Assembly: GCA_902728285.1 (NCBI GenBank)
Contig: CACVBU010000402.1
Span: 851,930-915,929 of the forward strand
Source of the DNA: Clytia hemisphaerica
Lineage: Eukaryota; Cnidaria; Hydrozoa; Leptothecata; Clytiidae
Length of the DNA: 64,000 nucleotides
Reading direction: 5' to 3'
The notes below the pieces were generated by a model. That model did not search any database, was not told the DNA's origin, and saw only the letters and a list, made by a program, of their open reading frames with translations. The position numbers and the translations under genes were made by a program. Shown here one piece after another: positions 16,206 through 63,615 of the stretch (within the stretch, counting starts at the first letter, position 1; the number at the start of each line of letters is the position of its first letter).

Positions 16206-21363
<5,158 letters not shown>

Positions 21364-26300: not shown

Positions 26301-29300
26301 AATCTATGGACAATAGAAGAATACAACAATGCAGTACTTAGAGATAGTTAGGAGTTGTGTTTTTGAGTTTACAACAGCCTTAACAAAAATCATGGAAGTT
26401 GAAAAAAAAAAACAAAAAAAAAGACAGCTGCAAAATACAGAAGTAAGCAAATACCAGGAAACAAAAAGAATCACTATCCTGGCTGAATTGTTTTCCCTTT
26501 TTGGTCCGTAAGACGTGTAAACCTCAAATAAGAAGGTTATCGAAGAAGGTTAAGATCTTCAACATCATCCTCGGGAAAAAGGGGGATGACTCACTTTCTG
26601 GACGATTCACCGGTTCGATATAAGAACGCGTTGAGCGTGCTTCTCAAATCTTCACTGATGTGCTCCGTACTTCTCCGCCGTAAGAAGGCGTCCGCCTCGT
26701 CCACAAATAACAGTAATCTAAACATCAATAATAGATAAATCATTGCACGAGTTGACAATTTTTTTTCCGTTGGTGGTCCTTAAGGTCCCTTGTTAAGCGA
26801 TTTTAATTCGCAGGGCTTTTCCAGGGCAAGGATCAGTTCTAAGATGACTCGCACAAGCCTAAATCATCATCTGAAGCATCTATAAATAAATTTCAAATTT
26901 GACCAATATTGAAGAATAGACTATAGTAATATAGAGTAGCGAGTCAGTTTATTTTTTTTAGCCAAATATGAAATATCGGAAGGACGATACTCTTGTCAGA
27001 ATGTCAAAATTCCACACAAACAGACTTTTGGGATGATAAAGGTCACCAGAAAATGGATTTCCTTTCCAGATGAGATGGAGTTTTCATAAGATACTTTAAT
27101 GATTGGTCATTTGAAGTGATAAAAATGACGCGTTCTTTAGAAAAAGTAACAATATTGTTTTATAATAATGGTTAATGACCCACCAAATCAAATAAGAGCT
27201 TGTAAAACTCCATCTCGTCCCCTCCTTTCTAATTTCTAATTAGATGATATCTTACCCTCGTCTTGAAGTGGATGCCCAATCAAAGATTTTGTGCATAGCA
27301 GTGACACCATCTCGGCCCATTGGCGCGACGTCGCCACCAGTCATAATGGCGTAATCAAGCCCTGAATGGTGAGCCAAGCTCTACATAAAAAGGTGCAAAA
27401 AATATAAACCAAAAGACAATGAAACACTTAAATGATTAACATTATTAACTAAATGGGATTCTTGAGAAGATCAAAATTTTCAACGGCTTTCATCTCAGCT
27501 CTTGACCGGTTATCATCCACCGTTTGGAGCTTAATAATATAGCATTGAGAATAAAAAAACCAAGCCATTATCTTTAAAATGGCTAAATGGTAACTTTCCC
27601 ATTCAAAAGGTACATTTTTGAGCTGTTCCAACACTTCTAATCCATAGCCAAAGATAAGTTTTATTACACATTCCCTTACCTTAGCAAACATGGTTTTTCC
27701 AGTACCAGGGGGACCATACAATAACAAATTCCGATACATTCCATTGTTTGCGCGTGTATTGGCCGTCGATAGGGCAACTTCGTGTAATCTTAAGTTCAAT
27801 TTTGGCTAAAAAACAATCAGACAAAACCAAGTTAATAAAAATTAGGCCAGCTGATTATTAACTAACATTAAAAGATCACCAAAATTTCATGAAAAAAGGT
27901 TTTAGAACAGGGGGGGGGGTCAAGCCTCAGGGTACTAAAGAATAGCCGGTGGGGTGGGTGTTTTTCCAAAAAAAATTTGATAAGTACCCGGGTATTTTTT
28001 TTTTTTTTTTTATTTATTTATTTTTTTTTATTATTATTTTTATTAATTGTATTTCAGGCACTTCCATATATCTCAATGGCTATTCGTCCTATTTATAATA
28101 AGTAAACTAAATAAATAAATAAATTATTATGTAAAAAATTATATATAATTTTCAATTTGCAAAAATATACGTACGACCAAAAGTTGATTCACTCAATTGA
28201 GATCAAAATCATAAATTGAAGCTTGGAAAAATTGTACAACTGCCCTATCTGGGCAAGTTGAAATACAGAGCTATATATCTCTTCAGTGAGGCCTATTCAC
28301 TTCTGAAAGATAAACTCTGCAGGCAAGGCTTTGAACTCGGAGAAATTCTAAATGGTGGAGACTAAGTATAGTATCAGCCAGTATTCATCAGAATTGGATT
28401 GAGAATATGAAATAAATTAAAAACAATAAAATAAAAAATTTATTTTAAACAATAATTATTTGTCGGAACAAAAGAAGAGCAAAAGTAGTGTTGTTGAATG
28501 TGGGATTGATGCTTGAAAATAACCTTGTGAAAAAAAGAAGAAGTGAGATCGTGATCGGCTATTGAAGGTAAAAAAAACTCGATTGCTTGAAAATGGCTAA
28601 ACATGAAGTACTAAAATAATAATTTAATTTGAAATATAGAAAATAAACTATTTATTATCTTATCGACAACTTGGGAGACTAGAGACTTAAAAGAAAATAG
28701 ACAAAACTAGAAGTAAATTGTAGCTTGGATTGGAGAATTGTGGAGATATTTACTTGTTATTGGTTTAGAAGTCTTACTAGTAGTAGTAGTGATTGTTAAA
28801 ATGTCGAATTTGTCGAGTGTCATAAACTAATGTTGCATAATATATATTGCAAGACTAACATCTAATAAATATTTTTTTAAAGAATTGCGAAATTTAATAG
28901 AATCAACCTCTTCCCGAATAACCTTTGGGAGATCATTCAAAAGGCGACTTGCCTTACCAATAAACAGTTTTTCAGATACATTACATACATAATTAGAATC
29001 AATCTCTTCAACATTACGTGTTGGTCTACCAGCAGCTCTCAGATGGAAGCCCTTTAGGTATGATGGGAAATCCTCCAGATGAATCGACTTGTGGGCAAGT
29101 TTTAAGAGTTCGAATTCAACCCGTTGTTGCATTGGTAACCAGCCAAGGTTTATTACATCCTCAGTTGTTGAATACTTTAGCGTTACAAAGGATGCGATTC
29201 GACATAGAAGCTTATCAAGTTTTTTGAATTGATATTGCGGAAGGTTCCAGAATAACGAGCAACAATAGTTGATCCTCGGTAACAATAGTGCTTCTGCGAG

Positions 29301-32300
29301 TTGCTTACGTAAGCGATACGATGCAGTGCGACGAAGGTATCGAAGAACATATAGCTTTGCATATACCGATTTACAAAGTTTGTTGACATGAGCCTCCCAG
29401 TTCAAATTTTCGTCGAACTGAAGACCAAGCAGTTTATATACGGTAACTCTTTCGATCAATTGGTTTGCGTGATGAATATGGAAGGTCGGATGGGTTGGGT
29501 TAGCGAGATCGTGCAGCTTACCCATTCTGGAAGTCGATAAGAGCATGATCTTTGTCTTTTTGTTGTTGAACGCAAGATTGTTTTCGGTCGACCAATCTTT
29601 GAGTTGATCTAGGCGTTGTGTCATTCTGATGATTGCGGCTGGTAGTTCTTTAGGTCTACAATGTTCGTAATTTGTAGTATCGTCAGCATATTGGTTGGTA
29701 CTACCACCCTCGACGTTGTCTTGTAAGTCCACGGTGTATAGATTAAACAAGATCGGTCCGAGGATGGAGCCTTGTGGTACACCAAACTGAACATTGCCTT
29801 GTTCAGACTGCTTGTCGTCGACCTGAACAAATTGCTTGCGATCGCTGAGGTATGATAACATGAGCAACGCGGCCTTGTCGGAGAAGCCGATTTTCCGTAG
29901 TTTGGTTATGAGTGTCTTATAATCAACCGTGTCGAAGGCTTTCGAATAATCAAGAAATGCTGCGAGTGTGATTTCCCCTTTGTTCATTGCACCAACGATA
30001 TCATCTCGAATTTTCATAAGCAACGTTTCGGTCGAGTGACGTTTGCGAAAGCCAGATTGGGTTTGCTTATATATCTGATGTTGGTCAATGTAGTCTACGA
30101 TTTGTTTTGCCATTAAACGTTCAAAAAGTTTGGAGAGTATGGGTAGCACGGTGACAGGTCTGAATTGATCAGGAGTGGTGGATTGTTCTGTTTTCGGAAT
30201 AGGTGTTACTTTGCCGATTTTCCACTGTTGATGAAATGTGTTCTCGGCGATACCAGTGTTGATTATATACGTGAGTGGAGATGCGAGATGATCAGCAATA
30301 GGTTTGATGAGTGAAACTGGAAGATTGTCGTATCCAGAAGAGCAGTCAGTTCGAAGGTTCTTGATTTCTTTGACTACTTGTTCATAAGTGACGGGTTGGA
30401 ATTCGAATTCATGCTCAACATTTATAGCAAGATCTTGAAGAAGGAGCTGGATTTCCTCGATTGAAGTTGGCTGTGATCCAAGGATTCTAGGAGCTGTTGA
30501 AATGTAGTGATCGTTTAGTTCGGAGGGTTGAATATTGATAACACTTTTCTTTGGGTGGAGGATTCGGTGAATAAGCTTCCAGACTTCTTTCGGTTTTTTG
30601 GATGAGAGAAGTTTACGGTAGAAAGTTTTTTTGGTGTGTTTTACCTGTCTTTGGGTACTTTTTGGGTGGGTGGGGAGCCAAGTTTGTTTAATCAAACAAG
30701 TACCCGGGTACTTTTTGGGTGGGTGGGGAGCCAAGTTTGTTTAATCAAACAAGTACCCGGGTACTAATTGGGTGGGTCTTATGTGAATTTTCTTTGTAAA
30801 ATAAGTACTTCGACTCAATTTTGGTGAGTACTGGGGTGAGCAGTTTTATTTTGTTTTCAAGATAATTTAAGGGCTTTGAGACTTAAGTATTGTTAAAAAC
30901 CTGTGACATTTTTATTCCATCATTGGATGGTTAAAAATAAGTTACTTCTAGCATAAAATTTGACACGAAGAACAGATAAAAACATGATTCTGCCATATAA
31001 AAATATTATCGATGAAAAGAAAGTTTTAAATTGTTTTATATTGTTGATGTAATATCAAAACATAAAAAGACCTGCCAAGAAAAAGAAATTTAGGGCAAAG
31101 TTTTGAAGTGAAAGTGAAAGCCAAGGTCCTGTTTTGTTTGTTTTGATCGAGCTCCATCTGAGTGTTTCCCTTTCCTTCTATTCTATTATGTTTTCACGGT
31201 GTCATGTTTTTGGCTTCTTTTATTTCAAAAGCTTTCTTACGTTATTACAGTATAGTTGTGGGTTTACTTCTTTATTCAGCTTTATTAAGCCATTTTTTTT
31301 AGCCATTTTTGTATTATATTATTTTGTTTCTATTTACCACAATAGGTTGCTTGATTGCATGCTTTGACCTGATAATAACTTCTCTAAGACATTCTGGGTG
31401 GGCACTCACAACAAAGCTCAAAGAAGTATAACAAATGGAGTTTAGATTAAAAGTGTTACAGATTCTCGTTTTTAAAGTGAATTTTACTTGGGTCTTTTGC
31501 AACTGGTTATATTTAGTTTATATTAGTTTCTTATTTTATGTTTAGTTTTGCTAATTTACTCTGGTTTATACTTTTTATATTTCCAGATATTTCAGAAACT
31601 AGATCTTTTGTTAAAACTGTTCTAAGATTTTGTAAGATTGTGAAAAAGTGCTTTTACATTGTTTTCATCTGTTTTCATGTTTAAAAAATAAGGCAATCAA
31701 TATACCCGAATGTATTACTGTAAATTACGCCTGGCTTATTAGTTGGGCTAATAGTAAAGGAAAATTAAAATTAACAGTTATAAGGGTGGGTTTAATTTTG
31801 ATGAGTGTAGAATTGAGAAAGATTAATAAGTAATAAATTCATTTTTTGTAGGTATAGGGTCTAAGAAGGAAAAGTCCTTAAGTACCCGGGTACTTTTTGG
31901 GTTGGTATGGGGTCTAGAAGAGAAAAGTCCTTAAGTACCCGGGTACTTTTTGGGTGGGTATAGGGTCTAGAAGGGAAAAGTCATTAAGTACCCGGGTACT
32001 TATTTGGGTGGGTGGTATGAGTCAAAATTTTTTTTAGATAAGTACCCTCTCTAGGCTATGCTTTAGTACCCTGAGGCTTGACCCCCCCCTTTAGAATAGA
32101 ATGAAATAACCCTATAATAAACGCGAACCATATTAAGCTGAAACTAAACTAAATATTTGCTCAAAACAATTTGCCTGTCAAAGCCAGAGAATAAATTGTT
32201 TTAACAAAGACGTTAAAAACTTACTTCTAGAATAATTCCTTTCAGTGCATCTTCAGGCTTGACCAGTAAACGTTTAGCTGCCTGAAAATATGAAGACAAA

Positions 32301-38300: not shown

Positions 38301-41300
38301 AATGAGAGGCAGGTAGTCATTTGAAAAGTCCATGCATGTGGTTAATCACACTTTAAAAGCTAATTTTTTAGTATTAATAAGGCGTGTGATAAGGTTTTAC
38401 AAATGCTATTGTAGGCAGATGTCACAAAGCTAGTATCATAATAATGATCATAAAGCATTTTATTTGATCTAAGCTAAGATATAGCATTGATAGATTAAAG
38501 AAAGATCATAAAATGTGTTCACCTCTCCTCATTGCTTCTTGTTTTTTGACAGATTCTTCTTGTTTGGCCAAATTGTCTTCATTCATCCTTTGCTAAAAGA
38601 AAATACACTCAATAAATGTTTACTGACATTCACTCCTTGTAAAAATATTATCTAAAAAGGACCAGAATACCAGTAGTTGAATATTTTCAAACCATCTGAA
38701 ATTCAGTAGGGCAGAAACATGTTCTAAATAATTATCAAGAAATAGCAACATAGATTTTCGCCTTCTGTAATGGTTTACCTGTTGTGTTAACTGATCATCA
38801 TATCTTTTGCGGGCTAACTGGTCTTGGAATTGTGCTCTCTAATAAAATAGAAATAAACCAGTATTGCTTGGATGTTGTAACTTAAATTACAAATTCTGTA
38901 GCTCCCTTAAAGAAGCTCAAAGGAAGCATTCCCTAAAATGTATTGAATTTATGATTTTATAGGCAGATCGTATACAATACATGCACCTAAATAAAGAAAA
39001 TTGTAAAAAGAAGACAGTTCGCCTATATAAAAGAATCAAGATGGAATCTAGTTAAAATTGTATGCGAGAGTTCATTAGGAAAACAAGTGATACTTTGATG
39101 GACCTACCTGGATTATGCATTTAACACGTTTATAATTGATATCTACGTGACGTGACCATTAAACAATCATTCAGAACACAAATAGTGACGATCTATTAAA
39201 ATTAGTCGTTTGTTTCTTATAAAAAAACGTTTAGAAACCAAAATTTCATGCTCTTGAAATGTTCTTTCATATTCAAGACTTCGTGAGCAAAAAAACATCT
39301 CCAAAAAATTGAGTAATTTGGCTAAGAACATTGATGTATGCTTATTAATAGTGATTCTTACTGATAAAGATGCTTTTTTTGAGCTGAAAAATTCATTTTT
39401 TACAAAAGTCTGCTTGAGCCATCTTTTATCTACTTTCATACAAAAAATCAGAAAAAAACAATGGTCCAATATTTCACTAAGTCCAAAAAACCCTTTTATG
39501 GCCGTTTTTTAGCTGAACTATACCCCACAATTTTTTTCTCCAAAACTCGGGCTCCGTCACATTGAGGGTTTATAATTATGCATCTTTATGCAAAAAATCG
39601 TAGAAAATGAAAGAGCCAATCAATCGAATACCTAAGTAATTGATAATGTGCTTATAAAAAAATATCGAATTTGGCCAGTTTTTCAATAAAAACATGCCAA
39701 ACAACCAAAATTTTCTGTCTAAACACTCGTGAGAAAAGAAAAACATCTATCTCATAAAAAGATTGAGTAATTTGACTAAGAACATTGATGTATGCTTATT
39801 AATAGTGATTCTTATAGATAAACATGCGTTTTTTGAGCCGTCAAATTTTTTTTGCAAAAATCTGCTTAAGCCATCTTTTACCTATGATGGTACCCTACTT
39901 TTATGCATAAAATTTGAAAAAATTAATGATCCAATTTTTCACAAAGTCCAAAAAACCTGTTTTTTAACCGTTTTTTGGCCCAAATTTGCTCAAAAACATT
40001 TTTTTTCGAAAATCGGGTTCTGTCACATTCAAGGGTTTATAGTTATGCATCTTTGTGTAAAAAAAATCATAAAGAATGAAAGAGCCAATCTCGAGAAAAG
40101 CCAATACCTAAGTAATTGATAATGTGCTTATAAAAAAATATCGAATTTGGCCAGTTTTTCTATAAAAACACGCCAAGCAACCCAAATTTCCTGTCTAAAC
40201 ACACATATTCTTCAAAAGTAAGTCCTCTTGAGCAGAAAAAACATCTATCTCATAAAAAAATTGAGTAATTTGACTAAGAACATTGATGTATGCTTATTAA
40301 TAGTGATTCTTATAGATAAACATGCGTTTTTTGAGCCAACAAAATTTTTTTGCAAAAATCTGCTTGAGCCATCTTATACCTATGATGGTACCCTACTTTC
40401 GTGCAAAAAATCAGAAAAAATTAATGATCCAATTTTTCACAAAGTCCAAAAAAGCCGTTTTTTAGCCGTTTTTTGGCCCAAATTTGCCCCAAAACATTTT
40501 TTTTCGAAAATCAGGTTCTGTCACATTCAAGGGTTTATAGTTATGCATCTTTGTGTAAAAAATCATAAAGAATGAAAGAGCCAATCTCGAGAAAAGCCAA
40601 TACCTAAGTAATTGATAATGTGCTTATAAAAAATATCGAATTTGGCCAGTTTTTCTATAAAAACACGCCAAGCAACCCAAATTTCCTGTCTAAACACACA
40701 TATTCTTCAAAAGTAAGTCCTCTTGAGCAGAAAAAACATCTATCTCATAAAAAAATTGAGTAATTTGACTAAGAACATTGATGTATGCTTATTAATAGTG
40801 ATTCTTATAGATAAACATGCGTTTTTTGAGCCAACAAAATTTTTTTGCAAAAATCTGCTTGAGCCATCTTATACCTATGATGGTACCCTACTTTCGTGCA
40901 AAAAATCAGAAAAAATTAATGATCCAATTTTTCACAAAGTCCAAAAAAGCCGTTTTTTAGCCGTTTTTTGGCCCAAATTTGCCCCAAAACATTTTTTTTC
41001 GAAAATCAGGTTCTGTCACATTCAAGGGTTTATAGTTATGCATCTTTGTGTAAAAAATCATAAAGAATGAAAGAGCCAATCTCGAGAAAAGCCAATACCT
41101 AAGTAATTGATAATGTGCTTATAAAAAAATATCGAATTTGGCCAGTTTTTCTATAAAAACACGCCAAGCAACCCAAATTTCCTGTCTAAACACACAAATT
41201 CTTCAAAAGTAAGCCCTCTTGAGCAGAAAAAACATCTATCTCATAAAAAAATTGAGTAATTTGACTAAGAACATCGATGTATGCTTATTAATAGTGATTC

Positions 41301-44300
41301 TTATAGATAAACATGCGTTTTTTGGGCCAACAAAATTTTTTTGCAAAAATCTGCTTGAACCATCTTATACCTATGATGGTACCCTACTTTCGTGCAAAAA
41401 ATCAGAAAAAATTAATGATCCAATTTTTCACAAAGTCCAAAAAACCTGTTTTTTAGCCGTTTTTTGGCCCAAATTTGCCCCCAAAAATTTTTTTTCGAAA
41501 ATCGGGCTCCGTCACATTTTGGGCATTGCCATTTTGCATCATTGTGCAAAAAATCAGAAAAAACTAATGAGCCAATCTCGAGAAAAGCTGGTAACTAACG
41601 GACGGACAGACGGACAAAGGTTAATTTATAGGACCTCCACCGGGGTAGGTCCAAAAAGTTACCATGACTATAGGGCGACTCCTTTTAAATATCAATTAAG
41701 TATACATTGCTTAGACATATTATGTTGGTTAGGAAATATCAATTAGAAATCAGAAAATAGCTGTATAACATTCATTGGGATTTTCACCAGAACCATTTTC
41801 GAAAGAAAGAACTTTTATTGATCACAGATTTTTCTCTTTACATTTTCGCCTTTGAAATAGAATTGTTAGAAATATAACACAAATTTTTTCAAGCATTTTT
41901 ACCATTGTAAGATACATTCAGTTTCTGAAATTAAATTTATTTGAATACAGGATACAAAAACTAATTCAATTGAAAATCCTAGCACCTCAAAGATGATAGC
42001 AAATATTACAGTATACCTGATTGGCATGTTTGGTCTCTTCTGATAAAGTTTTCCTTCGTTCTTCATGCATCAACCTAGTTTTGTCCAGTTCTAACCTAGC
42101 CATGTTCTGTTCATATTCCTACAAAAAGATCAAAATTGTAATACTTCATAAAAAACATCAACATTCCCTGTCTCATTTGATAAAAGAGAAGATGAAACCT
42201 GTTGTCTGATTTATGATATCCAACTTTCAATTAATTTTGAAAAACAGAAAATTATCTGACAGTCCAAATCATACTTTCAATTCTTTTTGGTGTTCCATTT
42301 GCTTAGTGCTTTCTTGCATTCTAGCCAAATCAAGCGCATCTTTTGCATGTTCTGAAATTGGCAAATAATAAAAAATTTTAGTTTTTAATATGAAATCTAA
42401 ATTGATCCAGCTTTTCAAAATCTAACATTGATTTCAACTAAAATCAGGGGGGGTACAGCCGCAGGGTACTAACCCATAGCCGGGTGGTGGTGTCTAATTT
42501 GGAAATTCAAAAAGTTTAGTACCCGGTACTAATTTTGGGGTGGGGGTGGGTATATCTCCAATTTTAAGTTAGTACCCGGTACCAATTTTAGGGTGGGGTG
42601 GGTATCATTTCAATTTTTCTTCAAGTACTCAGGCCCTGAATATGGTACATTTGTTTAATTTTTTGTCTTCAACTTTCAGGATTTTGATGACAAAAGATTT
42701 CCTTGTTATGGCTTACAGTATCTGACAGTATTGAAAAGTTCCCCCTTCCAATTGAAGGCTTTCCCTGCTTATCAAGTATGTAGGGAAGTTTGGTGGTTGT
42801 TAGTTTCAATAGTTTTCAGAAAAAAGAACTGTTATGTTTCTATCAAGAAAGAATTATTTCATTCAAATTCATGGGTACTTTCCCTACTTTCTAAGAGGAG
42901 AATTTTATGACCACTAAGTTATACAAATATTGAAATAGCTAATGCAAAGAAAGCTATTGTTCAAAATCAGTATTGTTTTAATTAGTGAGAAAGATAGTTC
43001 GTCTTTGATATCTCAAGTTAGAACGAGGTATATGTTTGTCATTGCCTTCTGATGAAAAGAATTACAAGCTGTTGCATCCAAAGTGATACAATCTGTCTTT
43101 TAAACAATAAAATTCTTATCCAAACTGATGATTCTTACAGCCTGGTTTTTGTTAGAGGGGTTAGTTTATCTTAGTTTATTGCAGTTTATATTATACCCTA
43201 TAGCTTATTTCTGTTTATATTTGTTTGTTTGTCTGATTGTTTGTCTGTTTATGACAATTAAGACGGAGGCAAGTCAACTAAGCAAAGCCAACCAGAGCCA
43301 ATAATGCAACTATTTTCTATTTCAACTTCTTTCATAACTACTTCTTGACACAGTTTTGAATAATTTGAATAAATTACCAATCTATTGAAGAAAAAATAAG
43401 GAAATCCATCCAATCCAAGCTTTCATACTATTCTTCAATTTTTATCAACTTGATTTTTACTTCTTTTGATAGATATATACTTTTATTGCCGTTATTACAT
43501 CTATATAATATTTTACTTTTGCCAAGGAATTTCCTTGTTTTACCTTTGTAATTAAAAGTTGTGTTTGATTTAAAGAACTTTTAAGAGGATCTGAGTTAAA
43601 AACATGGTATATACAAGTCATAATAACAACAAAGAGCTTTTGAAAGATTGGGACCATGCTTGGCAAGTTTTAAGGGTGGTGTCTCCTATTTTCCTGGTAA
43701 TTTTAAAGCCGGTACCCGGTACTAAAAAGGGGGTGGGGGTCCCTTTTTCCTTAAAAGAAGTAAGTACCCGATACTAAAAGGGGGGTGGGGGTCCCTTTTT
43801 CCTTAAGAAAAAGTAAGTACCCGGTACTAAAAAGGGGGTGGTGGTACCTAAGACAATTTTTCTTAAAAATCAGGTTAGTACCCTATGGGTTAGTACCCTG
43901 CGGCTGTACCCCCCCCTGCTAAAATACTTCCAGGAATTAAACTAACAAGATTGAAACAATGTGAGAATACAAGTCAAGTAGGAGGTTGATACTGGTTGAC
44001 AAAGAATTTATTTTCATATGCTTTCAATATCTAAGATCAAATCATCATTCATTTAGATACTAACTTGCTCCATCCAGCTGTCTTGCAGCTTTGGCAGCTC
44101 TTTCCAAGCCAGATGGATCAAAATTGGACCAGGCTTTTGGTTTAGAAGATTCTTTGTTATCATTATTATTGTTATTTCCACCAGCACCTCCTGGAGCACC
44201 TAGAAATAAAAAATGAAATATTGATAGGGCAATGACAATTGATAGGACAATGACAATTGATACATCAATTTAAGAATTAAAGTTTGAATAATATATCTTT

Positions 44301-46839: not shown

Positions 46840-48790
46840 CCTATAGAGAAGGTCTGGAGAAAGTTTCAGCTAAATCTTATTGAGGACACTTTGAGGAACT
46901 TTGAACCCCCCCCCCGCTGATGAGGCCATTTTTCCCAATTTTTCCCAATTTTGACCAATTTCCGCCAATTTTCCAATTTTTGCCGGCTTTTGACGATGCT
47001 TTGAGGAACTTTGAAGCACCCCCACCTGTGCAGGTGTGTTCCCTCACATCCCCCCTGACCAGCGGGCACCGATTGGACTACCTGGAGCCCCGGCTGGGAC
47101 CTCCAGGGGCCGTCCACGGTGGTACCCAAAGGAGGTCATTTTTTCCAATTTTCAAAAATTTTCAAGCCTTTCCAAGCCTTTTAAAGGCTTCGGAGCACTG
47201 GTGGAGGGTGCTGGCTTTTTGAGAGAGAGCAAGGCAGAGGGTATCCGAAGGGGTCCAAAGTGCTATGGGGGCTGTGGAGGGTTGTAGAGGCCTCAATTGC
47301 TCTCACCGACAATTTTCCTGGTGAGAAAGGGGTGTAGCAGCCTCAATTGAGGAGGTCATTTTTGGAAATTTTTGCCAGCTTTTGACGACACTTTGAGGAA
47401 CTTTGAAGGATCCCCAACGGTGCAGCCGTGTACTTTCACATCTCTTCTGACCAGTGAGCACCAATCAGACCCCCTGGCATATAGACCTAACTCTTCATAC
47501 AAAAATTACGGGAAACGCATATTTGGACTTTGTACCCTATGCTGCACTCGAGCACTTGGGCTAAAATCCCGCAAAGGCGGGACAAAAATCAGTTTTTTGA
47601 AGTTTGCAAAAAAATGCCACATAGAAGATCTTTCAAATTCAGTATAGAGCAGTAAAAAATACAACTTTTCTATTTTTCCTTTTTTTTGCAAAAGTTCTAG
47701 GAATGAAAATAAAGGGATAATGATAATTGAATACTATCCATTGATGACCCACGGCACTATCGTAAAGCTAGAATCGCTTCGCGTACTCTTCGCTTGAGAA
47801 AATGATTGACAGATTGAAGTTTTCCATCCCCGCGGTGCGCGCCGCGCGGGAGCTCGGACGCTCTGCGAGAGTTCTCGGCTCAATCCTCGGACCACGCTAA
47901 AATGGTAGACTGAGCTGTGATAGATCATTTCGATGGAAGTTGTTGGAATGTTTACAAGGCTCTTGACAGAATATTGTTTGTTTTATTGTCAATGATGACA
48001 GTGCCGTTATAAATTTTGTTAGATCTGACAAATTGATGTTTGTAAGTGCACTTTATAGTTTTGATTCCCATTGAAGAATCATATTCTGGTTTTCATGTTA
48101 TTAGATGCTGTTTTAGAGCTTTAGAGCTACACTGCCTGGCACACCGGCTGGGACCCCCAGGGGCCGTCCGCGGTGGTACCCAAAGGAGATCATTTTTTTT
48201 CCAATTTTGACCAATTTTCAAGCCTTTCCGCCTTTTCAAGCCTTTTAAGGACTTCGGATGACTGATGGAGGGTGCTGGCTTAGAGGAAAAGCAAGGCAGA
48301 GGGTATCCGAAGCAGTATGAAGGGCTGTTGAGGGCTGTAGAGGCCTTGATCGGTCCCACCGGGGCTGGTACCGTAAGTTGGTCTAATGTCGACATCCGTC
48401 TTCTAATTTCGACATCCTTCTTTATAGATAGGAATAATAAGAAGGTCGAAATCACTGATAGACTAAAGATTTTTCCTCTCATCGCGCTAATCGAAGTCAA
48501 TCAGCGATTCCGACCTTCCTCAATTTCTATTGTTCCTATCTCTAAAGAAGGGTGTCGAAATTAGAAGACGGATGTCGACATTAGACCAACTTACTGTAAC
48601 TAAAGGAGGTCATTTTTCACAATTTTTGCCGGCTTTTGACAACACTTTGATTGAGGAATTTTGAAGAACCCCCAACAGTGCAGACGTGTACCCTCACATC
48701 CCCCTTACCAGTGGGCACCAATCGGACCCCCTGGGACCTCGGCCGGGACCCCCAGGGGCCGTCCACGGTAATACCCAAAGGAGGTCATTT
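46840..48790. repeat. dispersed/tandem GC-richer repeat with GGGCCGTCCACGGT core
   Basis: A complex unit is repeated in part at about 46880-47290, 47350-47480, 48125-48365 and 48600-48785. Shared landmarks are TTTGAGGAACTTTGAA, ACCAGTGGGCACCAATCGG, CAGGGGCCGTCCACGGT, CCAAAGGAGGTCATTTTTT and GGCAGAGGGTATCCGAAG. Copies are partial and diverged, with the MITE at 48371-48596 inserted in one. Short open frames run through it without any recognisable protein domain. Confidence 0.7.
48371..48596. mobile_element. Tc1/mariner-type MITE, well preserved
   Basis: CCGTAAGTTGGTCTAATGTC at 48371 and the inverse GACATTAGACCAACTTACTG at 48577-48596 form near-perfect inverted repeats of about 70 bp that continue through CTTCTAATTTCGACA and GATAGGAA. 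TA flanks both sides (48369-48370 and 48597-48598). The 226-bp element has no coding capacity. It defines the family found decayed at 2602-2811 and in longer form at 52442-53960. Confidence 0.88.
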
Positions 48791-48799
48791 TTTGTTGCC

Positions 48800-49186
48800 G
48801 AACTTTTTCAAACAAAGTTTTTTGTTGAATTTGTCAAACCTTTCTTGTTCTCGAACTTTATTATCGAACAGAGTTTTTTGTCAAATTTATCGAACATTTC
48901 TCCTTGTCGAACTTTGTCGAACTTTATATGTTTTGTCGAACTTAATCGAATACTCACAATTTTAGCGACTTTTAAAAAGTTTGATTAAAGAATTTAATCA
49001 AACTTTTGTCGTTCGATTAAGTTCGACAAAGTTCGATTAGTTCGGTAATCGAACTGTTCGATTAATTACGTCAAATAAAAAACAAGCAAACCCGGAATGG
49101 CTACCTAAGTTGGAGCAGTTGACAGTATCAATCGAACACAATCGAACACAATTGAATATATATTACCCACCAGGAATCGGCCGTGC
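48800..49186. repeat. TCGAAC-rich degenerate repeat
   Basis: GTCGAACTTTGTCGAACTTT and the complementary GTTCGACAAAGTTCGATTAG lie close together at about 48915 and 49018, so the block can fold on itself. It continues into AATCGAACACAATCGAACAC. Element C1 is inserted at its right side, and the TCGATT-rich DNA resumes at about 50819-50900. Confidence 0.55.
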
Positions 49187-49193
49187 GATTGAG

Positions 49194-50811
49194 CAGGGGG
49201 GGGTATCGAGTCAGTGTACTGGCCCATAGCTGGTGGGGTGGTGTATTTTTTAGGTTAAATTGAGTTAGTACAGTGTACTAAAAGGGTGGTCCTCTGAAAA
49301 AAATACAATGAAAAAGTTAGTACAGTGTACTAAAAGGGTGGTCCTCTGAGAAAAATACAATGAAAAAGTTAGTACAGTGTACTAAAAGGGTGGTCCTCTG
49401 AGAAAAATACAATGAAAAAGTTAGTATACTGTACTAGAAAGGTTGGTGTTCTGAATTGATACACACTGAGAAGTTAGTACATTGTACTAATTTCATGGTA
49501 AAAACACACAAACCCAGTGAATTCCCATGTATATTTGCCCTAATTTGCCAGGTCCAAGCTGGTCCGAGACCTTCAAGTCAAGGCTGGTTAAGCTATACAA
49601 ATTGGTACAGTGATTTTCTCCCAATTTTTCCTGTTTACTTGATTGGATTTGTTTCAGATTCGCAGCATGCGCAAGTGGAGACCGGCCTTAAGTTCAATCT
49701 TGTTTACGTTTTTTTTAAGGCCCTATCTACATTATGGCAACAACAAGAATTTGTGTAAACGTTCGAATCGAAGCTTTCAAGTTTTATTTAAAAAAATCCG
49801 CTCTATTGTTTTATGTTTTTAGTAACCTTGTTGGATTGATGTTAATTGAAAAAAATCTGTATATAAGTGAAATCACCGGGGGGAGGGGGTGAAAACGACC
49901 GTACGTTCGGCCAAAAATCAAGTCTCTAAAATTGGTCCCTTACAGTGCAGGAAAAATTTGGCTGAAAAGCGACCCTTACAGTATAGTGTAATTTTTCGAA
50001 TTTTACCTCAAAATTTGATATTTTTATAAAATTTTACAGGGAAAGCACCTTTTTATATATTTTGTATAATATTACATTTGATAAAAGATTTTCCGTTTCA
50101 GTTTGTGTACAATGTTATTAAGTCTTTTATTTTTATTTTTCAAAAAAGAAAAACTGCTACAGCTTGCCCAGACAATCAGAAATCAAGTCACAAGAAGGGA
50201 AATAACTCAAAGTTGGTTTTGAGTGTTTTGACGTGCTAATTTCAGCTAATTTCACTGTATTTGATTGACTTTGCTTTGTCTGTTTCATTGTTTCAGTGTT
50301 TGTACTATATAAGGATTCAAGTATTTTAATATTCAAATCTTTCCTTTTTTATTTTGGTGCTTTTCTTAGCAAAATGCTTCAAAACCTTTGTATATGCTGG
50401 CAATTAAACTTATCTGGCCAAGAAGAAATTAGAACAGTGCACTCACTATAAGGGGTGGTTTCTAAACTTATCTGATCGAAAAAACAGCTAGTACAGCAGA
50501 GTACAGTGTACTGAAAGGGTGGTAATAAAAATCTAGTTAAAGAAAAACCTCAGTACAGTGTACTAAAAGGGTGGTATCAAAGCTCCGGCTGTGGAAGAAA
50601 GTTAGTACAGTGTACTAAAAGGGTGGTGTCAAAGCCCCGACCGTGAAAAAAAGTTAGTACAGTGTACTGAAAGGGTGGTGTCAAAACCCCGGCAGCGAAA
50701 AAAAGTTAGTACAGTGTACTAAAAAGGGTGGTGGTCTAATTTTTTGGAAAAAAATCCAAAAATCAAGTTAGTACCCTATGGTCCAGTACACTGACTTGGT
50801 ACCCCCCCCTG
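49194..50811. mobile_element. element C1 of the GTAC-palindrome family (7-bp TSD, AGTACAGTGTACT arrays)
   Basis: The element begins CAGGGGGGGGTATCGAGTCA then GTGTACTGGCCCATAG, and ends CTATGGTCCAGTACACTGAC then TTGGTACCCCCCCCTG. The flanking 7-bp repeat is GATTGAG (49187-49193 and 50812-50818). On the left, three near-identical 52-bp units carry GTTAGTACAGTGTACTAAAA plus GGGTGGT, with two degenerate ones following. On the right are about six units with the same palindrome and G block in the same orientation. The interior of about 900 bp is unique, AT-rich and lacks a transposase. Length is 1,618 bp. Confidence 0.92.
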
Positions 50812-52129
50812 GATTGAGATACGATTAGGTATTCAACCACGTTTGATTGGCTGGTTTGATTGCGATTTTTGTTTGAAGTTGTTCGATTGACCCCGTCTGG
50901 ATAAATATAAAAAGAATACACCGTTTAGGAGTGTCGGCTGCGCACGCGTCAATCCAATTTTCCATTGTTTTGATTTTAGCGATCACGGAAAATTCACTCT
51001 CCTCCGTAAAAAAACGGTAGGTAAACATCTGGTTCTCATAAGGAAACATAGCAGAAAAACGGTAGGTAAAGAACTCCTTTTAATCATAACTTCTTTTCCT
51101 CTTGATGAATTTTTGTGAAATTTTCAGGAGAGATTTATAAAATTACCATTGATATCATGTTCAAATATCTAAATCATTCTCTTTAAAGGAGAGAAAAAAA
51201 TTCACAATGTTTACATTCCTCTAACTTTTCACAGTACTAAAGTGCGCATTTTTACCTACCATTTTTACCGGGCCTCTGCAATGGAGTACCGTGAAATGGC
51301 GAGACTCCTAAACGGTGTATTGTTCTGACAGTCTGGACGAAGTGACACAATTCACTACCTCGGTCGCTGGTCTACTACTGCCTGAAAAATTGCCTAAAAT
51401 GCCAAACTTAGAATACGTTATGGCTAACTAAAGGTCTTGAAAACGTCAAAAAATTTTGATGAACATGTACCTACATACCTACCTAAAAAAAGTCCAGAAT
51501 TCTTGCATCATTTGCCCCGCGTGCTTTCCACATGCAATTTCCGCGCCATCTTGTTTGTGTAGCAGTACCGTCACCGGGAAATATTTTGGGGAAGAATTCG
51601 ATCTCAGTTGGACTCACAACGCCACAATTAGATTATACTAAATATTCAGACTTTTCTAATTAAAGTTTTATCGCCAACTCAAAAAATCCTAGAAAGTGAA
51701 CCTTGAATCGTCGCCTCTTGACTTTTTCTAAACACTGGCAAGGAGGAAAAGACAATATTCAGCATATTACGATTCTCTGGAGGTATTTACCTACAATTTC
51801 ACAAACAAACATTTTGTGCGAGAAACTTCAATTCAAGCTTTTAAGTTAACTGCACCGTTGTTTTTATTTTTTATCAGGTATCTATGACACTGAAAATCAA
51901 ATAGAAACTAAAAGCAAATTTTTTCTTTAAAAAATATCTTGATAATATCTTTTATTTTTATTTTTTTTCTTAGTTGAATTGGACTTTGCCAGAAAGACAA
52001 GATATCTTCACCATATTCTGTTTTGGTTACAACACAAAGAAAGCTACAAAAATGTAAGGGCTTCTTAATTTCATTTTTATACCGTTATTATTCATACTTA
52101 AATTTTTGAATCTCTCACTCACACAACAA
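50812..52129. other. intergenic DNA, nothing coding seen
   Basis: No exon is supported. Two short words are repeated: AAAAACGGTAGGTAAA at about 51010 and 51055, and the flanking phrase CACCGTTTAGGAGT at about 50919 is inverted as ACTCCTAAACGGTGTA at about 51304. This suggests a foldback repeat of about 400 bp at 50917-51320. Confidence 0.4.
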
Positions 52130-52438
52130 TGGGTCATTCCAGATAAATTTTATTACCCCCGTCTAACGACGTACATTTTGAAATGTTTTCTAGCTTCAAA
52201 AATAATTTTTTGTTCAGTGGTGGTCCGAAATTCCAATGAAAATCCATGTCTTTTTGCAAAATACGTTGGAAATTCAACTCTTATCTTTTTTGCTGTTTTT
52301 ATTTCAATTGCCTTGGAAATTCATGCATTTTCTTCTCTGGCCTTGGAAATTTTAAATTTTTGGTGAACACCGTTGCCCTCTGAAATTTTGTGTCGTCCGC
52401 CCCCTGTACGTGTTACAGACAAATTCTGGAATGGCCCA
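52130..52438. mobile_element. MITE with TGGGCCATTCCAGA ends
   Basis: TGGGTCATTCCAGATAAATT at 52130 is inverted as AATTCTGGAATGGCCCA ending at 52438. Its terminal sequence matches the element at 20198-20601. The interior has CCTTGGAAATT repeated twice (about 52311 and 52341). It abuts the mariner-type element that starts at 52442. Confidence 0.65.
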
Positions 52439-52441
52439 ATA

Positions 52442-53960
52442 CCGTAAGTTGGTCCAATTTTGACAACAACCCACGGCATGGCCCGAGCATAATGTTTGGG
52501 GCCTCTTGATTGATACTTTTTTTAAATGGCCCGCGCGTGGCGCAGTTTCGTACCATGTTCAGGCCAGATTTTCGAAAACTTGCTACGCTCGCGCGTGTAA
52601 TTTCAGGACCCAATATTTTTATTTTAAATTCCTTATTTTAGCAAAGAAATTTAAAAATCTTCATCTTTATTCAAATATATATTGTTCAAATATAAAAGTT
52701 AATCATCTATTTTCCAATTAAGTTAGGAAAATTATTAAAAAGTTAATCATTTGAATCTTACATAATATGGTCTTCTTTTTATTCTTTATCCCGTTCCCTT
52801 TTCTTGTGGTCTTCCCCTATTCGAAGCAGAATTTTTCTGGATCGTTTTTTTTACTGTTATACAACTTTGTGAATCAAACTGGTATTTGGAACTTTGAATT
52901 TGTTTAATGAAAATATTTAACAATGGATGATGATAAACCAGGAAAGGTAAATAAAATTAAATTCAATTGTAAATGGCCCGAACATGGTCCGAACATGTTC
53001 GGGTCATGCCGTGGGTCGTTGTTGACATCCCTCTTCTAATTTCGATCACCCTTCTTTAAAGATAGGAATAATAGGAAGGTCAGAATCACTGATGGACTAG
53101 ATTTTTTTCTCTCTCAGATCGATAAGCAAAGAAAATTAGTTCAATCAGGTTCAATGTGTCAGTCAGTTAGTGAAAGTACCTCGATTTCAAGCATGGTCAA
53201 AGTTCACAGTAAGAACGACTTTCTTTTTTATTACGGAAACCAAATGAGTGAGAACAAAGTCAAAACCTAAAAGTCAGTGCTCTGTGGTTGTGAAGTAGTT
53301 TACAAAATTATTAAGATAAAAAAAATGACATAGTACTTTTAAACAACTTTTTTCAAAATCATTTTTTGAAGCTTCTTCGTAGGAGAATGTGTCTTTCCAT
53401 AAGGAATTTTGTAACACTTCATGGCAGATTAATAAGACAATCAGTTGGGTGTTTAAGATAAAAACGGCAATTATTGCTCTTTTCGGCAATTATTGCCGAA
53501 AACAACAATTTTTTCAACAATGAAATGCTGAATCAGCAAAATGTGTTGTCCTTTTAAGGGCAAAGATGTCAGAGGTGTTTGAAAATAGTAAAATTGCTTT
53601 GAGAAAAAGGTTTTTCAGGATTTTTAAAAGTGATTTTTTCATGGACAATAGGAAAACGAAAGCTTCTTCGTTTTAGTTTTCGCATTTATGGGGAAGAATA
53701 AAACTTTTAGAAAATGTTTATTCAATATGAGGATTCCCATTTCCGTAAAATCGCAATTCCCCATGGCTGCAAAATGGTGTCTATGGGTAATTCTTTTGTT
53801 CCTTTGCTATTTTCTTTTGTTCTATGTGACATAAAGAAGCTTCACAAACCGAAGTACTTCCACTAACTGTCAGTGATTCTGACCTTCCTATTATTTCTAT
53901 ATCTAAAAAAGGGTGTCGAAATTAGAAGAGGGATGTCGCTAGTAGTAGACCAACTTATGG
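52442..53960. mobile_element. long Tc1/mariner-type non-autonomous element with a nested insert
   Basis: CCGTAAGTTGGTCCAATTTT at 52442 and the inverse TAGTAGACCAACTTATGG at 53960 are flanked by TA (52440-52441 and 53961-53962). After the nested insert the left arm resumes with GACATCCCTCTTCTAATTTC, TAGGAATAATAGGAAGGTCA and AATCACTGATGG. These match the right arm inverted, giving terminal repeats of about 110 bp. The central part of about 740 bp is not coding. Confidence 0.82.
52464..53021. mobile_element. nested element with CAACAACCCACGGCATG ends
   Basis: CAACAACCCACGGCATGGCC at 52464 is inverted as CATGCCGTGGGTCGTTG ending at 53021, one mismatch in 17, continuing through CCCGARCAT. TTGA flanks it (52460-52463 and 53022-53025; the duplication may be 5 bp, TTGAC). 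Excising it and one flank copy restores the continuous left arm of the host MITE. The interior of 558 bp is AT-rich and non-coding. Confidence 0.85.
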
Positions 53961-54049
53961 TACAACATACGATCAATAACTTTTTCCAATCAATGACCAT
54001 TTGTTAACCAATCGATGGATTGGAAGCGAAAAGAAGCGGCGAAAGAAAA

Positions 54050-54262
54050 GGCGCTGTGGTATAGTGGTCATTGACCTTGGTTGCTGCACAGGCAACTGAG
54101 GTTCGATTCCCAGTCGCAGCCTTTCACTTGGCAAGTAAATGAACCTTCACCCGGGTCAACCCATGCCATGTGAAGAGAATTGGGTACTCAGTGTAAGGTG
54201 CTGGCGGCGCTCTTTGAAGCATCTATAGTTGCGAAACTCAACCAAATAGAATAGAAAAAAAA
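54050..54262 (+). mobile_element. tRNA-derived SINE
   Basis: The head GGCGCTGTGGTATAGTGGTC has a pol III A-box (TGGTATAGTGG), and GAGGTTCGATTCCCAGTC, 40 bp on, is a B-box in tRNA-like context; the two ends of the tRNA-like part (GGCGCTG and CGCAGCC) roughly pair. A tRNA-unrelated body follows (TTTCACTTGGCAAGTAAATG onward) and an A-rich tail closes it at about 54262. This is a SINE and not a tRNA gene, because the anticodon arm is disrupted. Confidence 0.75.
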
Positions 54263-55193
54263 GATGTCATTGACCACATTCCTGGAATTTTCAAATGAAG
54301 CAGCCTGAAAATGCTACGAAAAAATTATTTAATGGTGGAAGGAAAGTGAACAAATATCATATCAATATCATTCTTGCAGCTACAAGGTTTGAACATGAGA
54401 AATTGGCAAAAATCATTCCGTTTTTTCCATGTCTTTATAATAATTCCTTGGATTGAGATGTTTTGTGATGTTTTACATGTTATTCAAGTAGGTTAAAACA
54501 AATTACACAACCCCACCACCTCAATCACTATCTAACCAAACCGTATCCACTTTGTTAATCTGGTTATCAAAATCTTTAAAAAGCATTCAAGCTCTATCAG
54601 AAAGATTTTCCCCTGCAATGTCTCATATTGTATCACTTTTATATCAGCTGACTTTCACATGTATGCTCCATATCTGCAACTGGTGTGATTTCAATTTAAC
54701 TTTCCTAGTTAACTTGATTCTTAGGCTGTTCCTTATAAAAATCCTTATGGGTGTCATAAAACAATTTTCAATTTCTTTTCAAAAGTGATTGATTCAAGGG
54801 TACATTTTAGATATAGCACATGTTCACACTAGGTATTTAAAAAGATAATGTTTTATAAATATGAAGACTTTTAAGGGCTGAATGCTCAATGATTCCTTGG
54901 CCATGCTAATTAAATCTGTTTACTGGTTATAATGGAATAGGTTATGTATCATGTTGAAATTTAATTTTTTATGGTCTGATTCTTTATCTTTTAAGAAAAA
55001 TCAAAAATCAATTTTACTTTAAAGTTAAACTTAAGATTTTTCAAACTCGAAATTATGCATCAGGCTGACTTAAAACACTCTTTATCTAGTGACTCAGAAA
55101 GAAGAATGTTTTTTGGAATAACCTTATTTTAATGATTTTGTACTACTGTAATACAGATTAAATATTGTATCAAATAATCTCTAACACTTTCAG
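54263..55193. other. gap between the SINE and the candidate VAMP 5' exon
   Basis: I see no repeat structure and no exon that I can defend. The stretch is AT-rich. If the exon at 55194-55232 is real, the first VAMP exon and promoter should lie here or further upstream. Confidence 0.35.
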
Positions 55194-55232
55194 GTCCTAC
55201 GAATCAACACCAATCAGTAACTCTCCTTCACC
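55194..55232 (+). CDS. candidate upstream coding exon of the VAMP gene
   Basis: A 39-nt stretch between a good acceptor (ACACTTTCAG) and a GTATGG donor has exactly the phase (one base plus twelve codons plus two bases) needed to join the exon at 58915. It would encode SYESTPISNSPSP in front of [11 protein letters not shown] low-complexity Ser/Pro-rich N terminus is normal for synaptobrevins, whose N termini are not conserved. However, the family usually has Arg before LQQ and this join gives Pro, and I cannot find a convincing ATG exon upstream. Confidence 0.3.
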
Positions 55233-55321
55233 GTATGGGTAACTAATTTACTAAACACTGAGTTGAATCAGAACTAACAAAGTACATTTCAAGTTTACAA
55301 TAAAGAACTTGCTAATAATTA

Positions 55322-55393
55322 GATATAATTAACACTATAGATATGATTAACACTAAAGATACAATTAACACTATAGATACAATTAACACTATG
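55322..55393. repeat. 18-bp tandem repeat, four units
   Basis: AGATATAATTAACACTAT and three close variants stand head to tail. Nothing suggests a function. It would lie in a VAMP intron if the exon at 55194-55232 is real. Confidence 0.75.
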
Positions 55394-55864
55394 ATTATTG
55401 ACATTTAAATATTAAAACGGAACTTTAAATAACCAACCAACCTCCCCTAATGGCATTACTAAAATCTCAGACATATTTTAGGACTAAAATAATTGTCCTT
55501 GATTCATTGAACCATAACCCAATTTTAAAAATAGGTATGTTGATAAGTATGCAGGCCATTTTTCATGCCCTTTAAGCGTCTGATTATCAGACGCTGCCCC
55601 TCTTGAAATTACTAGAATATTGGTAAAAGCAGCCTTTTTAATGGAAAAACACTGGAACAAGCACTCTTTTTGGCCACCAACGGACGCTGCCTTACCTTTC
55701 TAAAATATGGCCTGGTATGTACACATGTTTTAGCCGATCTTGAACCTAATTTTGCTCTGATTCTCTCAAAAAGGAAACTTGAATATAAAACCCTGCACAG
55801 GTATTAACAGTAAGGGTTCTACTTTTTAAATCGAGGAATTGCATGTCTTCAAAAAGTTCTTTAA

Positions 55865-56550
55865 CCTTTCCGCCCCGAAAGACGTATCTGATACGTTCAC
55901 CATACGTTCCGAAAGACGTATCTGATACGTTTTTAAGGTAACCTTTATATTTGGTCGGATTACGCCCCAACCGTCAGAGGTACGGTAAAACCGATTAAAA
56001 AATCGGAATCAGCGTGAAATTTCAGATAAGAAACAATCAGGGTTTGTTTTGCTATGACGCAACATTTTTCAAAAATAGAAATGGTAGACCAAGCTGTGTT
56101 GCGTGATTTTGTGAAACTGGAGGAGGCAGAAAGTTAGCTATGAAAGTAAGGGTTTATAAAAGTGTTTTAGAGTTTTATTTGGCTTTTCAAAAGTATGGAA
56201 TTGTATTACCTAACTATAAAGAAACCTTCTAAAGAAAAAAGTAAGTGTTTTTATCAATTTTTCAGTTCTCTATAATTTTTTGAAGTTTTGCACCAAAAAA
56301 TGACTTTTTCGCGACATTGTTTTTTCATATACCTTTTGTTTGGCTTCATAATTTCTGTCCAAAACAGTTTGAAGTACTCAGTTAAACATATTTAGAAAGG
56401 GGAAAGGTAGGGCTTTCCAAAAATATAAGGGTTTTTTTCTGAAGTTAATTTTTCAAAAAGTTATAACGGTTATCGTGAAAATTGCATTTTCATCAAAAAA
56501 CGTTGCGCGCAGACGGGCTGAAGATATAAAAATGTTGCGCGCTGGAAAGG
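55865..56550. mobile_element. piggyBac-type MITE with TTAA target duplication
   Basis: CCTTTCCGCCCCGAAAG at 55865 is matched inverted at the right by GCGCGCTGGAAAGG ending at 56550. Both sides carry TTAA (55861-55864 and 56551-56554), the signature target of piggyBac-like elements. Near the left end the word AAAGACGTATCTGATACGTT is present twice (about 55877 and 55911); it is itself a palindrome around ACGTATCTGATACGT. No transposase is present in the 686 bp. Confidence 0.7.
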
Positions 56551-56774
56551 TTAAATGTGAAAGAATCTTGATTTGGTTGGAATAGTTACATAACATGGAA
56601 AAGATTGAAGACAGTATATGACGAAAATTCTTAGTACATAAAGTTTTTAAACAATAATACTTTTGAAAAATATGTTCTCTCTGAGATTTTAGTAATGGGG
56701 TAACCTTTAACATTTACTCGGCTTAAACATACATTTTTTAACAGAACACAATATTTTGAAGATTATCATCAAGT

Positions 56775-58390
56775 CAGGGGGGGGTATCGAGTCAGTGTAC
56801 TGGCCCATAGCTGGTGGGGTGGTGTATTTTTTAGGTTAAATTGAGTTAGTACAGTGTACTAAAAGGGTGGTCCTCTGAAAAAAATACAATGAAAAAGTTA
56901 GTACAGTGTACTAAAAGGGTGGTCCTCTGAGAAAAATACAATGAAAAAGTTAGTACAGTGTACTAAAAGGGTGGTCCTCTGAGAAAAATACAATGAAAAA
57001 GTTAGTATACTGTACTAGAAAGGTTGGTGTTCTGAATTGATACACACTGAGAAGTTAGTACATTGTACTAATTTCATGGTAAAAACACACAAACCCAGTG
57101 AATTCCCATGTATATTTGCCCTAATTTGCCAGGTCCAAGCTGGTCCGAGACCTTCAAGTCAAGGCTGGTTAAGCTATACAAATTGGTACAGTGATTTTCT
57201 CCCAATTTTTCCTGTTTACTTGATTGGATTTGTTTCAGATTCGCAGCATGCGCAAGTGGAGACCGGCCTTAAGTTCAATCTTGTTTACGTTTTTTTTAAG
57301 GCCCTATCTACATTATGGCAACAACAAGAATTTGTGTAAACGTTCGAATCGAAGCTTTCAAGTTTTATTTAAAAAAATCCGCTCTATTGTTTTATGTTTT
57401 TAGTAACCTTGTTGGATTGATGTTAATTGAAAAAAATCTGTATATAAGTGAAATCACCGGGGGGAGGGGGTGAAAACGACCGTACGTTCGGCCAAAAATC
57501 AAGTCTCTAAAATTGGTCCCTTACAGTGCAGGAAAATTTGGCTGAAAAGCGACCCTTACAGTATAGTGTAATTTTTCGAATTTTACCTCAAAATTTGATA
57601 TTTTTATAAAATTTTACAGGGAAAGCACTTTTTATATATTTTGTATAATATTACATTTGATAAAAGATTTTCCGTTTCAGTTTGTGTACAATGTTATTAA
57701 GTCTTTTATTTTTATTTTTCAAAAAAGAAAAACTGCTACAGCTTGCCCAGACAATCAGAAATCAAGTCACAAGAAGGGAAATAACTCAAAGTTGGTTTTG
57801 AGTGTTTTGACGTGCTAATTTCAGCTAATTTCACTGTATTTGATTGACTTTGCTTTGTCTGTTTCATTGTTTCAGTGTTTGTACTATATAAGGATTCAAG
57901 TATTTTAATATTCAAATCTTTCCTTTTTTATTTTGGTGCTTTTCTTAGCAAAATGCTTCAAAACCTTTGTATATGCTGGCAATTAAACTTATCTGGCCAA
58001 GAAGAAATTAGAACAGTGCACTCACTATAAGGGGTGGTTTCTAAACTTATCTGATCGAAAAAACAGCTAGTACAGCAGAGTACAGTGTACTGAAAGGGTG
58101 GTAATAAAAATCTAGTTAAAGAAAAACCTCAGTACAGTGTACTAAAAGGGTGGTATCAAAGCTCCGGCTGTGGAAGAAAGTTAGTACAGTGTACTAAAAG
58201 GGTGGTGTCAAAGCCCCGACCGTGAAAAAAAGTTAGTACAGTGTACTGAAAGGGTGGTGTCAAAACCCCGGCAGCGAAAAAAAGTTAGTACAGTGTACTA
58301 AAAAGGGTGGTGGTCTAATTTTTTGGAAAAAAATCCAAAAATCAAGTTAGTACCCTATGGTCCAGTACACTGACTTGGTACCCCCCCCTG
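56775..58390. mobile_element. element C2 of the GTAC-palindrome family, near-identical to C1
   Basis: The same ends, arrays and interior as C1 (49194-50811) are present. The 7-bp target duplication is different, ATCAAGT (56768-56774 and 58391-58397), proving an independent insertion. Length is 1,616 bp. In the parts I compared, the only differences from C1 are two missing bases in homopolymers (near 57533 and 57627). It lies upstream of the VAMP exon at 58915. Confidence 0.93.
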
Positions 58391-63273: not shown

Positions 63274-63310
63274 TAGGATGAAACTTTCCCTATTCATTTC
63301 TCACTTATTA

Positions 63311-63613: not shown

Positions 63614-63615
63614 TA

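Follow-up and report, generated by a model that had tools for sequence, protein, structure and literature searches.

Four segments of a 64,000-nucleotide stretch of the Clytia hemisphaerica genome (contig CACVBU010000402.1, forward strand, positions 851,930 to 915,929; hereafter the window) are best read, with a probability of roughly three in four, as non-autonomous cut-and-paste transposons that depend in trans on a DDE-type transposase making a 7-base-pair (bp) staggered cut, and whose arrays of GTAC-N3/4-GTAC palindromes would be dimer sites for that enzyme. Directly seen are inverted termini, 7-bp target duplications, recent movement of one subfamily, the lack of any long reading frame of their own, and palindromes that are better conserved than the spacers between them at a pitch of 52-53 bp.

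Results

Element A (27908-32089) is flanked by TTTAGAA (27901-27907 and 32090-32096), element B (42445-43918, 1474 bp) by CTAAAAT (42438-42444 and 43919-43925), and the two copies of element C, C1 (49194-50811, 1618 bp) and C2 (56775-58390, 1616 bp), by GATTGAG and ATCAAGT, respectively; all four are given on the forward strand. An earlier note on this DNA had described these limits, ends and duplications, and we recover them with one correction, namely that the right end of A reads CCCCCCCC directly before TTTAGAA and lacks the TG. The termini of all four elements are inverted and begin with CAGGGGG, the left end reading CAGGGGGGG(G) and the right end its inverse. Terminal repeats lie at 27908-27945 (forward strand, through ATAG) and 32056-32089 (reverse strand) in A, at about 42445-42479 and 43883-43918 in B, and at about 49194-49229 and 50776-50811 in C1. 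Past the G run, left and right ends agree at 26 of 27 positions in A and likewise in B, and at 23 of 27 in C1. CAGGG stands at both ends of B, C1 and C2, which fits CAGNG-type hAT termini, a weak criterion. The longest open frames measure 83 amino acids (aa) in B, 106 aa in C1 and 86 aa in A. Inverted termini, a duplication of fixed length, many copies and the absence of a transposase gene from the elements together agree with what is expected of non-autonomous cut-and-paste elements.

Pairing of 56 left-like with 38 right-like ends across the window, with flanking repeats of 6 to 10 bp tested, returned 7-bp repeats for B, C1 and C2 and for one pair in a GC-rich repeat at 47-49 kilobases (kb), and no flanking repeat longer than 7 bp. 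Element A was missed because its right end is without the TG. The source of the sole extra pair is a set of GC-rich direct repeats (GGACCCCCAGGGGCCGTCC...) at 47051-48793.

The length of A, 4.2 kb as it stands and about 1.5 kb otherwise, is due to a nested, 5'-truncated long interspersed nuclear element (LINE) on the reverse strand (27995-30652, limits by eye; RVT_1, E 5.2e-28). This LINE is foreign to the element; the 86-aa frame lies to its right. Its insertion point is the first left palindrome of A (27984-27994), and GGGTA flanks it on both sides (by eye).

All 27 occurrences of GTAC-N3/4-GTAC in the window fall within the four elements, and 50 dinucleotide-preserving shuffles gave a mean of 0.42 and a maximum of 2. 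The palindrome is GTACCCGGGTAC in A, GTACCCGGTAC in B and GTACAGTGTAC in C, and each array unit runs from the palindrome through a short A/T run and GGGTGG into a spacer. All arrays are on the forward strand. In A the left array (30700-30764) has palindromes at 30700 and 30753, the first one, at 27984, being split by the LINE, and the right array (31882-31999) has three, spaced by 53 bp. B carries two palindromes spaced by 53 bp on the left (42519-42582) and, in the same direction on the right (43712-43827), palindromes at 43712 and 43817 with an altered one, GTACCCGATAC, near 43764. The left array of C1 (49268-49487) comprises five units, the last two altered, and the right array (50501-50719) five palindromes in the same direction at a pitch of exactly 52 bp; those of C2 lie at 56849-57068 and 58080-58298.

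Units were compared without gaps (5, 5 and 10 units for A, B and C, the LINE-split unit of A excluded). The pairwise mean identity was 1.00, 0.91 and 0.96 for the palindromes of A, B and C, 0.77, 0.77 and 0.66 for the tails, and 0.33, 0.40 and 0.42 for the spacers. Neighbouring units can be near-identical at one end, as are the first three of C left; units differ from one end to the other and between subfamilies. Adjacent spacings were 52 or 53 bp in 40 of 46 cases and 105 bp in three more (C1 and C2 both counted). The constancy of the spacing over changing sequence suggests that selection acts on a pitch of 52-53 bp, about five turns of B-DNA.

The arrays had been described as lying in one orientation despite the inverted termini, and this holds beyond the window: none of 13 elements with recognised units has units in opposing directions. 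Of the 13, 11 have units in both halves that share a single direction. The recognised units of A are confined to one half because of the LINE, and those of the copy at locus L046 likewise lie in one half. Array length varies among copies.

The genome scan covered the 951 contigs of the 417-Mb assembly to which the window belongs, and it returned 468 occurrences (230 + 238) of the strict end pattern and none (0 + 0) of its reversed control. By type there are 68 A ends, 36 B left ends, 134 C ends, 22 F ends and 58 G ends. Exact 7-bp duplications flank 10 of 12 distinct two-ended copies drawn from 30 loci (lengths of 3 to 12 bp tested) and 20 of 23 two-ended copies overall. The 23 are made up of these 12, the four window elements, L093, L094, L095, L099 (a 286-bp copy with duplication GATATAT), L103 and the C16 and C40 copies; L037, L041, L045 and L048 were excluded since their repeats had served to locate the far end. 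Among the three misses, L033 and L040 match at six of seven positions and L094 shows no match. No other exact duplication length was seen in the 23 copies, in line with the constant 7-bp duplication proposed from the window, and the shared ends and duplications bear out a set of non-autonomous DNA transposon subfamilies. Two B left ends lie in the same direction 4.6 kb apart (C915:548863 and 553436), a possible tandem pair.

The palindrome core follows the terminal motif. Across 49 distinct ends, with palindromes sought within 330 bp, all 34 assignable cores inward of CAGGGTACT ends are of GG type and all 48 inward of CAGTGTACT ends are of TA type, with no crossed case in either class; 10 cores are mixed, and at 11 ends these 330 bp contain no palindrome. 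The joint variation of terminal motif and core between subfamilies, first noticed in the window, is thereby upheld as a strong description with weak statistics, because copies within a subfamily are related and the independent changes are few. Locus L098 is a hybrid in which the C-type CAGTGTACT motif sits in a B-like end, alongside the cores GTACCTTGTAC and GTACCAGGTAC; it is a possible intermediate between two recognition classes.

Over 1618 bp, two single-base indels are all that separates C1 from C2. As they lie at different sites with different duplications, C has moved recently. They are two independent insertions and a single witness for the motif. Full or near-full-length C copies (40 of 722 candidates scored) are 85 to 100% identical to C1, and old and new copies are present side by side in the genome. 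Many C copies break at query position 811-846 with extra sequence between, which suggests two length variants of C.

Transposase domains abound in the genome: 150 matches to the P domain PF21787 (from 247 candidates), 110 to KDZ, 99 to the hAT dimerisation domain and 142 to THAP, with one BED-finger match. The ends listed comprised 100 of 468 for the general pattern, 100 of 134 C-type, 36 of 36 B-left, 68 of 68 A, 58 of 58 G and 22 of 22 F ends; E-type ends lay outside the set. Comparison by position of the resulting 339 distinct ends with 502 domain matches revealed no transposase gene between matching ends, so the long, transposase-encoding relative that the earlier note proposed to look for was not found among them; this includes the 99 hAT dimerisation matches. 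The matches no more than 12 kb from a listed end number four, one P, one hAT and two THAP, and include none of the 110 KDZ matches. The P gene at L093 is split by an inserted G-type copy (1979-2722, duplication TATTAAA), the hAT gene at L103 has a B copy inserted in or beside it (282-1875, reverse strand, duplication GACTCGC), and the THAP matches lie outside elements, one of them 2.6 kb beyond an F end (C628), the other at a distance of 11.6 kb from an A element (C662).

Among the 150 P loci, 36 were inspected, 30 of them with about 1.5 kb of flank per side and six over 8 kb in total. None contains a GTAC-N3/4-GTAC array or a pair of CAGGGG ends bounded by a 7-bp repeat; single CAGGGG runs without a partner are present at L075 (at the edge), L089 and L091. 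A search for termini at the six 8-kb P loci and around the L103 hAT gene gave weak candidates at most, and two KDZ regions of 7 kb contain neither a GTAC array nor paired ends. At C870:32974-47261, six near-identical P-type transposase fragments stand head-to-tail at a spacing of about 2.75-2.79 kb, each with two TAA stops.

Widely spaced end pairs include a 5.2-kb A copy (C564) and pairs of 2.8 kb (C751) and 2.6 kb (C177); those at C523 and C553, considered as autonomous copies, proved to be C copies with insertions. The middle 3,000 bases of the C564 copy consist of repeats and hold no frame above 83 aa. At loci with unusual ends (L096-L100) no transposase was noticed by eye in the frames, and no family search was run. 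With C as DNA query, no split copy with a long middle appeared among the 40 scored candidates. Among the matches listed for translations of the interiors of A, B, C and of three further copies in the genome, strong ones to transposase loci occur only at L093 and L103, both of which carry an inserted copy, and weak ones (E 0.006-0.04) at a few others. Pattern matches in IMG/VR, one in each of 26 contigs, were taken as chance.

Other features of the window

A tandem array at 39303-41598 consists of about five copies of a unit of about 495 bp, some of them 98-100% identical over 300 bp, and a 177-aa open frame at its end contains NGRTDGQ. In a direct repeat at 5249-7340, a stretch recurs about 1.23-1.25 kb further on in blocks of 87-100% identity. 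Short tandem arrays at 8004-8560 (units of about 52-56 bp) and 13312-13479 (42 bp) are free of GTAC-N3/4-GTAC palindromes. The inverted repeat at 63309-63615 (116 bp, 95% complementary, arms 75 bp apart) is a possible small foldback element. Pieces of host genes lie on the reverse strand at 1115-1996, 16209-19361 and 26129-26347, a FIT protein (Pfam) among them; other exons, recognised by eye, resemble a G-protein beta subunit and an ATAD3-like protein.

Discussion

Our preferred mechanism is that a DDE-type transposase acting in trans would make the 7-bp staggered cut, that each palindrome would be a dimer site for its DNA-binding domain, and that the terminal CAGNGTACT would carry a matching half-site. 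Precedents for several transposase-binding sites per end are reported, in the available parts of the sources, for Hermes (PMC10368747) and Galileo (PMC3688188). At a pitch of five turns the dimers would sit on one face of the helix, where a multimeric transposase might pick out the ends as in Hermes. The conservation of the palindromes, their pitch and the match between terminus and core fit arrays of putative transposase-binding sites. A change in DNA-binding specificity may underlie the division between GGGTAC subfamilies (A, B, E/F) and GTGTAC subfamilies (C, G). The shared direction of the arrays may stem from tandem duplication of units and copying from end to end; the near symmetry of the palindrome means that binding need not depend on direction.

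CAGNG-type ends are common among hAT elements, for which the target pattern nTnnnnAn is known. As superfamily we tentatively place hAT with a 7-bp duplication first, at somewhat less than even odds, followed by P and then KDZ; the choice of hAT is a guess. It is made because of the terminal sequence and because 7-bp hAT families have been published. According to the part of the survey at hand, hAT duplications are 8 bp long, with 5-7 bp in hAT5-hAT7, and hAT7 comprises rust-fungus families with 7-bp duplications (PMC12730594). The Repbase paper, in the portion available, uses 'hAT with 7-bp TSD' (target site duplication) as an example query and defines a family by a terminal match over positions 1-11 plus equal duplication length (PMC4455052). 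The duplication of the Clytia elements (20/23) thus has the hAT7 length and not the usual 8 bp of hAT. Unlike them, hAT7 elements are fungal and encode a hAT transposase, many also TET/JBP, and no palindrome array is mentioned in that part of the text (PMC12730594).

Several observations weigh against hAT-type elements with transposase-binding arrays. No transposase gene was found between matching ends among the 339 compared, BED-fingers are represented by a single match, and the pattern nTnnnnAn is not clear in the 7-bp duplications. The ungapped comparison exaggerates the divergence of the spacers, and the first three units of C left are near-identical. The 34:0 and 48:0 split between terminus and core reflects few independent changes in related copies; at L098 a mixed core accompanies a T-type end, and at L044 the central base of one core is the opposite one. 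G-type copies (five elements) share the ends and the duplication and are without the GTAC-N3/4-GTAC palindrome. Finally, the affinities of the published hAT7 families lie with hAT elements of fungi and plants (PMC12730594).

Mobilisation by a P-superfamily transposase of the Galileo kind, that is, with a 7-bp duplication and several THAP sites in terminal tandem repeats, is unlikely but survives best among the rival explanations. P transposases are abundant here (150 PF21787 and 142 THAP matches). Galileo of Drosophila, in the partial texts available, typically makes 7-bp duplications (PMC4168063), as do 20 of our 23 copies, has transposase-binding sites in the tandem repeats of its ends (PMC3688188) and exists as many non-autonomous copies. 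Against this stand the 36 inspected P loci, devoid of both arrays and paired ends, and the only P gene near a listed end, which is split by a G-type copy. Furthermore, the Galileo target consensus GTATTAC is absent from the 20 duplications, the ends of Galileo form long inverted repeats, from about 0.76 kb upward, whereas those of the window elements are short, and the THAP site is not described as a palindrome in the part of the source concerned (PMC3688188).

A KDZ transposase related to Kyakuja is a rather improbable agent. The 110 KDZ matches and, in the same partial source, the 7-bp duplications and 5'-CA..TG-3' termini of Laccaria Kyakuja (PMC12730594) speak for it, but Kyakuja is reported there without the terminal inverted repeats that the window elements possess (23-26 of 27 positions), the two 7-kb KDZ regions lack arrays, and no KDZ match lies near a listed end. 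That the arrays are satellite-like passengers, grown by slippage or unequal exchange, and not transposase sites is less probable still: the near-identical neighbours in C left imply that units do duplicate and array length differs among copies, but under drift the palindrome and its pitch would not persist next to a spacer that varies from end to end and from subfamily to subfamily, nor would the terminal motif track the palindrome core.

Other known systems agree in part. Hermes and similar hAT elements make 8-bp duplications and carry short asymmetric motifs, unlike the elements described here. The likeness lies in the several transposase protomers, an octamer in Hermes, that bind subterminal DNA through multiple domains in the account available (PMC10368747). 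Dada shares a 6-7-bp duplication and short subterminal inverted repeats, but is without terminal inverted repeats and inserts in small RNA genes at a fixed site, as far as the source extends (PMC3706591); membership is rejected given terminal inverted repeats, 20 different duplications and no tRNA gene in the window. Tm1/Phantom (Mutator) has tandem repeats within its ends and copies resembling miniature inverted-repeat transposable elements, but 9-bp duplications, 14-bp units inside the inverted repeats and other termini in the excerpt concerned (PMC3169594); a 7-bp duplication excludes Mutator/Phantom, for which about 8-10 bp are required. In view of hAT7 (PMC12730594), Galileo (PMC4168063), Kyakuja and Dada, at least in the portions available, the earlier description of a 7-bp duplication as uncommon was overstated.

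In the literature consulted we found no family with same-direction, 52-bp-phased palindrome arrays and a core matching the terminal motif, although a repeat library may already have an entry for it; the letters of palindromes or ends turned up in two papers with unrelated titles. Another or a new superfamily appears doubtful. Somewhat more doubtful is an undescribed transposase lineage with 7-bp cuts and orientation-locked, phased palindromic dimer sites, in which the code would have changed stepwise from GGGTAC to GTGTAC at terminus and array.

Conclusions

Many DNA transposons have a few, loosely arranged internal binding sites. In Clytia the candidate sites are regularly arrayed in phase with the helix, and their core shifts with the terminal motif between subfamilies of one genome. 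This amounts to a natural experiment in the joint change of specificity of a transposase and its ends, and the recent mobility seen in the near-identical C1 and C2 would make the system testable once the enzyme is found.

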